Positions 940-1,775 of a stretch of 35,676 nucleotides of DNA are shown here, in pieces. The DNA comes from a virus. The notes beneath the pieces are model-generated. The model saw nothing but the letters and a program-made list of their open reading frames with translations, ran no database searches and was not told the origin of the DNA. A program made the translations under genes and the position numbers. Every line of letters begins with the position of its first letter. Position 1 is the first letter of the stretch. The DNA lies in the IMG/VR virus record IMGVR_UViG_3300024518_000016, positions 1 through 35,676 of that record; one strand, written 5' to 3'.

Positions 940-1775
940 TGAAAGTATTAGACTTGTTTAGCGGTATTGGCGGCTTTAGCTTAGGTCTTGAAAGGGCAGG
1001 AATGAAGACTGTAGCTTTCTGCGAATTTAATCCGAAGTGCCAAAAAGTATTATCTAAACATTGGCCGAATGTGCATATACATGATGATATTAGGGGGTTG
1101 GATGGAACACAGTACAGAGGAACAATTGATGTTGTTTGCGGGGGATTCCCTTGCCAAGACTTGTCACAAGCGGGGGGGCAGGCAGGATTTAAGGGTGAGC
1201 GATCCAGTCTATACAGGGAGATGCTTAGAGTTATTAGCGAGTGTGGACCACAGTACGCAATCTTTGAAAACGTCCCAGGTTTGCTTGCTGGAGAATCAGG
1301 GCGATGGTTTGCTAAGTTTCTCTATGACTTGGCCGAGATCGGGTATGATGCTCAATGGCACTGCATACCAGCTAGCTACGTTGGCGCACCTCACCAAAGG
1401 GACCGAGTGTGGATTATTGCCTACCCCAAGAGCATCAATGAGCTGCAAGATCACAAGAAACAGGCTGAGAGACAAAAACAGGAACCTGGAGAAAGCTTTA
1501 GCCGAGCTAGTGTATCAAGAGGGCGTGATTCTTCCGACCCCAACGGTAAGCGATGCGAGAGGATCGCCAAAATCGCGGAATGTATTAAACAACAAGTCGA
1601 ATTTATGCGAGGTTCTGAGAACGAAAAAAGAAGATTCAATTTATCCGAACCCATTCTTTGTGGAGCAGATGATGGGGTTTCCGGTAGGCTGGACAGACTT
1701 AGAGGATTAGGTAACGCAGTGGTACCACAAATACCCGAGGCGATTGGTAGAGCAATAATGAATATTAAGGATTAA
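939..1775 (+). CDS. DNA cytosine-C5 methyltransferase (Dcm-type)
   Basis: This 278-residue enzyme transfers a methyl group from S-adenosylmethionine to C5 of cytosine. Visible motifs are motif I DLFSGIGGFSLGLE (residues 5-18), motif IV GGFPCQDLS (68-76) with catalytic Cys72, motif VI ENV (110-112), motif VIII QRDRVW (153-158) and motif X GNAVVPQI (258-265). Residues about 163-245, where the target-recognition region should lie, are hydrophilic and low in complexity, which makes the recognised sequence impossible to infer. The start overlaps the upstream nuclease stop. The likely role is protection from host restriction. An alternative frame (1102-1710) also encodes a recognisable protein, which may explain the odd composition of this region. 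Confidence 0.93.
   Translation: MKVLDLFSGIGGFSLGLERAGMKTVAFCEFNPKCQKVLSKHWPNVHIHDDIRGLDGTQYRGTIDVVCGGFPCQDLSQAGGQAGFKGERSSLYREMLRVISECGPQYAIFENVPGLLAGESGRWFAKFLYDLAEIGYDAQWHCIPASYVGAPHQRDRVWIIAYPKSINELQDHKKQAERQKQEPGESFSRASVSRGRDSSDPNGKRCERIAKIAECIKQQVEFMRGSENEKRRFNLSEPILCGADDGVSGRLDRLRGLGNAVVPQIPEAIGRAIMNIKD
1102..1710 (+). CDS. Overprinted ORF inside the methyltransferase gene
   Basis: This 202-residue frame lies wholly inside the methyltransferase gene. It reads LFAGDSLAKT (residues 11-20), LKTSQ (55-59), WPRSGMMLNGTAYQL (77-91), GLLPTPRASM (104-113), LPTPTVSDARG (144-154) and NPFFVEQMMGFPVGWTDL (183-200). I recall these motifs from phage proteins usually annotated as hypothetical or as cytosine-methylase-associated. 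GDSLAKT is the shifted reading of the catalytic GGFPCQD motif, and TECGLLPTP is the shifted reading of DRVWIIAYP. The ATG at 1102 follows AGGGGG (1092-1097) by four bases; an upstream ATG at 1069 is possible. Expression is unproven, but both frames look protein-like. Function is unknown. Confidence 0.6.
   Translation: MEHSTEEQLMLFAGDSLAKTCHKRGGRQDLRVSDPVYTGRCLELLASVDHSTQSLKTSQVCLLENQGDGLLSFSMTWPRSGMMLNGTAYQLATLAHLTKGTECGLLPTPRASMSCKITRNRLRDKNRNLEKALAELVYQEGVILPTPTVSDARGSPKSRNVLNNKSNLCEVLRTKKEDSIYPNPFFVEQMMGFPVGWTDLED

Follow-up and report, generated by a model that had tools for sequence, protein, structure and literature searches.

An enzyme of the nested two-chain kind was reportedly purified from Escherichia coli decades ago. 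We take the published M.EcoHK31I genes to be nested, also going by the sequence of E. coli S43, and their products to be of 309 and 176 aa, the sizes encoded by a gene pair of that strain. The S43 chromosome carries a 309-aa methyltransferase alpha with a nested +1 ORF of 176 aa, which ends in RRMLPSEYERLQGFPENWT / RRMLPSEYERLQGFPENWTLIDSEQ, and a convergent gene of no recognised identity beside the methyltransferase; we infer that this pair is M.EcoHK31I or a close copy of it. M.EcoHK31I and M.AquI have been described as two-polypeptide C5 methyltransferases; in M.EcoHK31I alpha has motifs I-VIII and X, the smaller chain carries motif IX only, and the predicted target-recognition domain has been placed in the large subunit (PMC3404938). 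In addition, an island of E. coli is reported to carry a near-identical copy of the EcoHK31I restriction-modification system (PMC6174562).

The window analyzed here (the whole stretch of a viral record, 35,676 bases) encodes a DUF968/Ref-like nuclease, a methyltransferase gene with a second gene nested in it (alpha and beta), terminase subunits and a P22-like portal; all the window features located below are on the + strand. Alpha, the gene for the predicted large subunit of a C5-cytosine methyltransferase (939-1775), is an ORF of 278 aa in which motifs I (948-974), IV (GGFPCQD, with PCQ; 1140-1160), VI (ENV, 1266-1274), VIII (1386-1409) and X (1704-1730) are all present and in order, as a preliminary description of the sequence had reported. 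Its match to Pfam DNA_methylase (PF00145; 1.6e-53) covers residues 1-182 only, ending at motif VIII, and neither motif IX nor a target-recognition domain was found in the alpha chain. An alignment of 52 relatives presented conserved blocks I-VIII, then about 80 unconserved residues and finally motif X, with the consensus GRVAxGVPxRVDRLKxLGNAVVPQ. The AlphaFold model of alpha matched M.HhaI and M.HaeIII, and identities to the window among 75 loci retrieved with alpha were mostly 41-66%. Upstream of alpha, the TAA of the DUF968/Ref-like nuclease gene (598-939; Pfam DUF968, 1.7e-8) overlaps the alpha ATG (TAATG, 937-941), which suggests translational coupling, so that three proteins might be made from one mRNA.

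Beta (1102-1710) is read in the +1 frame, with 202 codons open from the ATG at 1102 to the stop codon at 1708-1710, and would encode a second subunit of 202 aa. A ribosome-binding-like site, AGGGGG (1092-1097), lies 4 nt 5' of this ATG. The longest ORF in the frame runs from ATG 1069 (213 aa), but this candidate start was rejected, as relatives with ATG 1102 mostly have stops before 1102; so was the idea of 1102 as a chance ATG, since close relatives retain it directly after an in-frame TAG. In 15 relatives an ATG stands at the corresponding position, and in most of these a TAG in the same frame immediately precedes it, a second beta-frame stop lies a few codons upstream and a GAGG-like site is present; for these reasons 1102 is a better start than 1069. 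The start is not uniform over the rest of the family: in seven loci (L045, L067, L069, L076, L102, L107 and L108) a beta-frame stop is found shortly after motif IV and the frame is open beyond, so beta would start later there and the GDSLAKT segment would be left untranslated.

Three parts can be distinguished in beta. The N-terminal half (1141-1404; GDSLAKT, LLASVDHSTQSLKTSQ, TWPRSGMMLNG) overprints alpha motifs IV-VIII, GDSLAKT (1141-1161) being the +1 reading of alpha GGFPCQD (1140-1160). The LPTP region (1405-1644; GLLPTPRAS near 1411 and ILPTPTVSD at 1528-1554), a putative target-recognition region, is a poorly conserved linker when read in the alpha frame, and here GLLPTP corresponds to alpha WIIAYP (1410-1427) read in the +1 frame. 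Motif IX (PNPFFVEQMMGFPVGWTDL, 1645-1701) overlaps the alpha stretch just 5' of motif X. The second frame with its 202 codons, its nearby AGGGGG and its start, as well as both pairs of shifted readings, had been pointed out in the preliminary description, and the sequence, the coordinates and the start context kept in relatives (ATG, preceding TAG and GAGG-like site) agree with it.

The closest likeness is to M.EcoHK31I, the heterodimeric methyltransferase of an E. coli type II restriction-modification system (YGGCCR): the chains are split in the same way, the large one carrying motifs I-VIII and X and the small one motif IX, with the small chain of the window nested in another frame. There are also differences. 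The M.EcoHK31I alpha belongs to another part of the tree than the window class, the S43 alpha grouping with Dcm and a Clostridioides enzyme in a catalytic-domain tree; the EcoHK31I-type beta lacks the LPTP region of the window beta; and EcoHK31I includes a restriction enzyme, whereas a scan of the eight neighbouring proteins in the window recognised none. Direct profile matches between window-class and EcoHK31I-type betas were modest (z 1.8-3.6 over shuffles), and the S43 beta matched PHROG 16143 at 7e-6 and the nested protein of a class from Firmicutes phages, described below, with a z of 5.0. As this nested protein also resembles the window-class beta, it may indirectly support homology of the two kinds of beta. 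Because the alpha groups elsewhere in the tree and direct beta similarity is modest, the view that the window enzyme works like M.EcoHK31I is firmer than that of a same lineage. M.AquI is also a natural C5 methyltransferase split into two chains, as in the window (PMC3404938). However, motif X too is in its small subunit, while in the window beta is nested and stops at 1710, and motif X is in alpha; the split forms of RedFox, Empress and L149 mentioned below look more like M.AquI than the window does.

Some similarity passes from a main frame to any alternative one; the second frame was therefore compared with a null model made by shuffling synonymous codons while holding the alpha protein sequence and codon usage constant. 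None of 2000 shuffles left 1102-1707 open. Against a beta profile built without the window sequence and its near relatives, the second frame of the window scored 215 bits, versus 84 +/- 12 for the shuffles (maximum 133); hence about 84 bits of the apparent beta family resemblance stem from alpha's own constraint, and the remainder does not. In the 75 methyltransferase loci, collected by the alpha frame alone and sharing ancestry, so that stop and openness counts are non-independent trials, synonymous shuffles predicted a beta frame open over motifs IV-X in 2.2 cases and 254 stops in the +1 frame, and the counts observed were 64 and 14. The +2 control frame behaved as expected (732 stops versus 684). 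This depletion was seen in the +1 frame only and only from the start of beta onward: 81 stops versus 62 expected upstream of beta, none versus 120.6 within motifs IV-VIII and 9 versus 90 within motifs VIII-X. Dcm-type control methyltransferases showed no depletion from motif VI on (14 stops in the +1 frame versus 18.6 in motifs VI-VIII) and no beta-profile excess over shuffles. Beta was open over >90% of motifs IV-X in 180 of 192 related loci, and coexistence of the frames is thus not peculiar to the window. These results indicate that beta is a real, selected gene and that both frames are under selection. Two overprinted proteins coexisting in the gene had been proposed from the window sequence, and the data are in line with this; stops scattered through the second frame in relatives, named at the time as evidence to the contrary, were not encountered (64/75 and 180/192 loci open).

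Codon variability gave an idea of which frame leads in each part of the overlap. Before it, position 3 of alpha codons was the most variable (0.589 versus 0.228 and 0.157), and within motifs IV-VIII it still led, reduced to 0.399, but in the motif IX region alpha position 1, which is beta position 3, took the lead (0.362 versus 0.212 and 0.283). In the beta alignment, position 3 was the most variable in both the LPTP region (0.475) and the motif IX region (0.217). Four-fold wobble differences at identical residues were 0.66 upstream of the overlap and fell to 0.42 within it. Dominance thus switches, with alpha leading up to motif VIII and beta after it, and because of this switch the overprinting is reciprocal; the N-terminal half of beta (1141-1404) is alpha-dominated, with beta also constrained. 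The proposal in the preliminary description that the beta family arose by overprinting a methyltransferase stands in part. It fits the N-terminal half, and this half only, of beta; the C-terminal half carries motif IX, is more conserved in the beta frame and has an in-line counterpart in one-chain relatives, and past the N-terminal half it is more likely that the linker of alpha is the overprinted partner.

The C-terminal end of beta (NPFFVEQMMGFPVGWTD) corresponds to C5-methyltransferase motif IX, missing from alpha: its signature, LNPxWVEWLMGFPxGWTD, behaves as motif IX, and the beta profile aligns weakly to Dcm at RRLTPRECARLMGF. In agreement with the earlier expectation of a second-frame protein family, database searches matched the window beta to PHROG 1008 (4.4e-25), which was also matched by 9/9 first-collected relatives; the annotation of this family, 'DNA methyltransferase', is silent on a second frame or a motif-IX subunit role. 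With tblastn, beta found matches in 86 phage records. PDB sequence searches with beta or an early beta alignment gave no match and Pfam searches no family for beta; AlphaFold of beta alone was poor (pLDDT 57, pTM 0.27), and a BFVD search with this model returned as top results a phage methyltransferase and an unnamed protein at TM ~0.2, i.e. no usable fold match.

Relatives made of one chain show where beta would fit. Gordonia phage Jabberwocky gp4 and Mycobacterium phage Aggie gp53, matched by PHROG 1008 at 3e-67 and 4e-71, run from an alpha-like part through a beta-like part (LPTP to IX) to motif X, and in both the beta profile aligns from LPTP through IX exactly between the alpha-like part (1-195 in Jabberwocky gp4) and motif X (404-438). 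These proteins hold the same pieces as the window (I-VIII, LPTP region, IX and X), but in one reading frame and with no in-line equivalent of the N-terminal half of the window beta. Tandem-split forms also exist (RedFox 42/43, Empress 68/69, Samy and L149); in Samy and L149, read through, the second ORF carries motifs IX and X. In the catalytic-domain tree, one-chain and tandem forms made up one supported group (97/85), which lies inside the nested ones if the tree is rooted on the Dcm side. This suggests, with few outgroups and some long branches, that the nested arrangement came first and the one-chain form later.

As judged by sequence analysis, both frames are selected, motif IX is in beta and not in alpha, and the same segment is in line in one-chain relatives. 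Since motif IX is so placed in the three kinds of chain, beta is most likely a second subunit, and we give a probability of roughly 0.77 to the reading that alpha and beta form a two-subunit C5-cytosine DNA methyltransferase encoded in one DNA stretch, with beta as the nested second subunit. Alpha (939-1775) would be the catalytic part, with cofactor-binding motifs I-VIII plus motif X, while beta (1102-1710), started at its own internal ATG, would supply motif IX and possibly the target-recognition region between motifs VIII and IX; this last role is suggested by codon dominance, whereas the published M.EcoHK31I assignment is to the large subunit (PMC3404938). By analogy with M.EcoHK31I the alpha and beta chains would assemble into one enzyme, which would probably methylate phage DNA against host restriction. 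Translation of beta, its assembly with alpha, activity and specificity are what we infer from these comparisons.

A second class of genes bears on this reading. In Clostridioides, Streptococcus and Lactobacillus phages, methyltransferases that are complete in one chain, their motif IX lying in the main frame, likewise retain a +1 ORF (loci L322-L401), which extends from motif IV to ~30 codons past motif VIII (..NWMKSGMMQ.GK..TLKTSE...EKECSLSDILEDEVDEKYFLSEE..) and in which no motif IX was found. Its product matched PHROG 16143, with tblastn matches in 217 phage records. The 24 distinct loci of this class had no +1 stops versus 133 expected from motif IV to VIII, and their four-fold wobble difference was 0.155 over the 30 codons that follow motif VIII versus 0.67 before and after the overlap. 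The nested protein resembles the window-class beta beyond shuffles, with a median z of 3.1 (Dcm controls, z <=0). The presence of a related nested protein devoid of motif IX in complete enzymes counts against a split enzyme: the N-terminal module might act independently, and the role of this half of beta may go beyond completing such an enzyme. Beta could even be a genuine nested gene product that has its own function, e.g. as a regulator or partner of the methyltransferase, its motif-IX-like end being unneeded by alpha; the stop depletion, the wobble and the resemblance just mentioned speak for this. Nevertheless, we consider it unlikely, given that motif IX is present in beta and absent from alpha, that one-chain relatives hold the same segment in line, and that M.EcoHK31I is made up of both chains (PMC3404938). 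A broader scenario, which we put forward tentatively, is that the nested N-terminal module could be an ancient overprinted protein with its own function, kept in C5 methyltransferase genes across phages of many bacterial phyla and also in complete one-chain enzymes. The window lineage would additionally hold the target-recognition region and motif IX in that frame, each frame being informative for half of the gene, and the one-chain and tandem-split actinophage enzymes would be later escapes from the overlap, in keeping with the tree when rooted on the Dcm side.

Programmed ribosomal frameshifting from alpha into beta, which would give a fused one-chain enzyme, might be invoked in view of the in-frame one-chain versions, an overlap that is always +1 and start codons that are not uniform across the whole family. 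It is nonetheless very improbable: constraint on the beta codons begins at motif IV, well before any useful shift point, close relatives show beta-frame stops and then TAG-ATG at the start with a GAGG-like site, and motif X would be missing from the product of a single shift after motif VIII. Least probable of all, although alpha constraint alone yields the ~84 bits of match to the beta profile, is a non-coding second frame whose motifs echo alpha amino acids and codon usage, a reading rejected by the shuffles (0/2000 open; 215 bits versus a maximum of 133), by the family-wide stop depletion from the start of beta in the +1 frame but not in the +2 control, and by the Dcm-type controls without depletion from motif VI on.

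Matches occur in 15 of 369 sampled gammaproteobacterial genomes and also in phages or plasmids of Bacteroides, Leptospira, Acinetobacter, cyanobacteria, Paenibacillus and actinobacteria. Four loci (L020, L033, L037 and L087) have an insertion immediately behind the beta stop, an HNH-endonuclease-like ORF that seems to lie within the frame of alpha, and an HNH gene is annotated inside the methyltransferase of Gordonia phage Bibwit (L306). The prophage copy of E. coli PCP07014 (L302, 2374-3135) has a stop at the same spot in both frames, being a dual-frame pseudogene. Both frames are already annotated in two phage records, as LILY_63 of Paenibacillus phage Lily, 'g62 internal gene' (L008, 1809-2300), and as genes 5 and 6 of mycobacteriophage Catdawg, each annotated as DNA methyltransferase (L006, 732-1683). 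Most related phage records have one frame annotated, or both called 'DNA methyltransferase'; gene callers usually dismiss long same-strand overlaps. A literature search found no description of the nested frame as widespread. The nested kind is known from M.EcoHK31I and, according to the literature found, is not recognised as widespread in phages, where it is common and largely unannotated.

Many phage 'Dcm' genes would thus be half-annotated enzymes, of which alpha cloned alone would look dead, and their target specificity may need to be read from the hidden frame. Besides, the family represents a well-sampled case of the dominant frame switching within one gene, which would be useful for understanding how overlapping genes arise and are undone.
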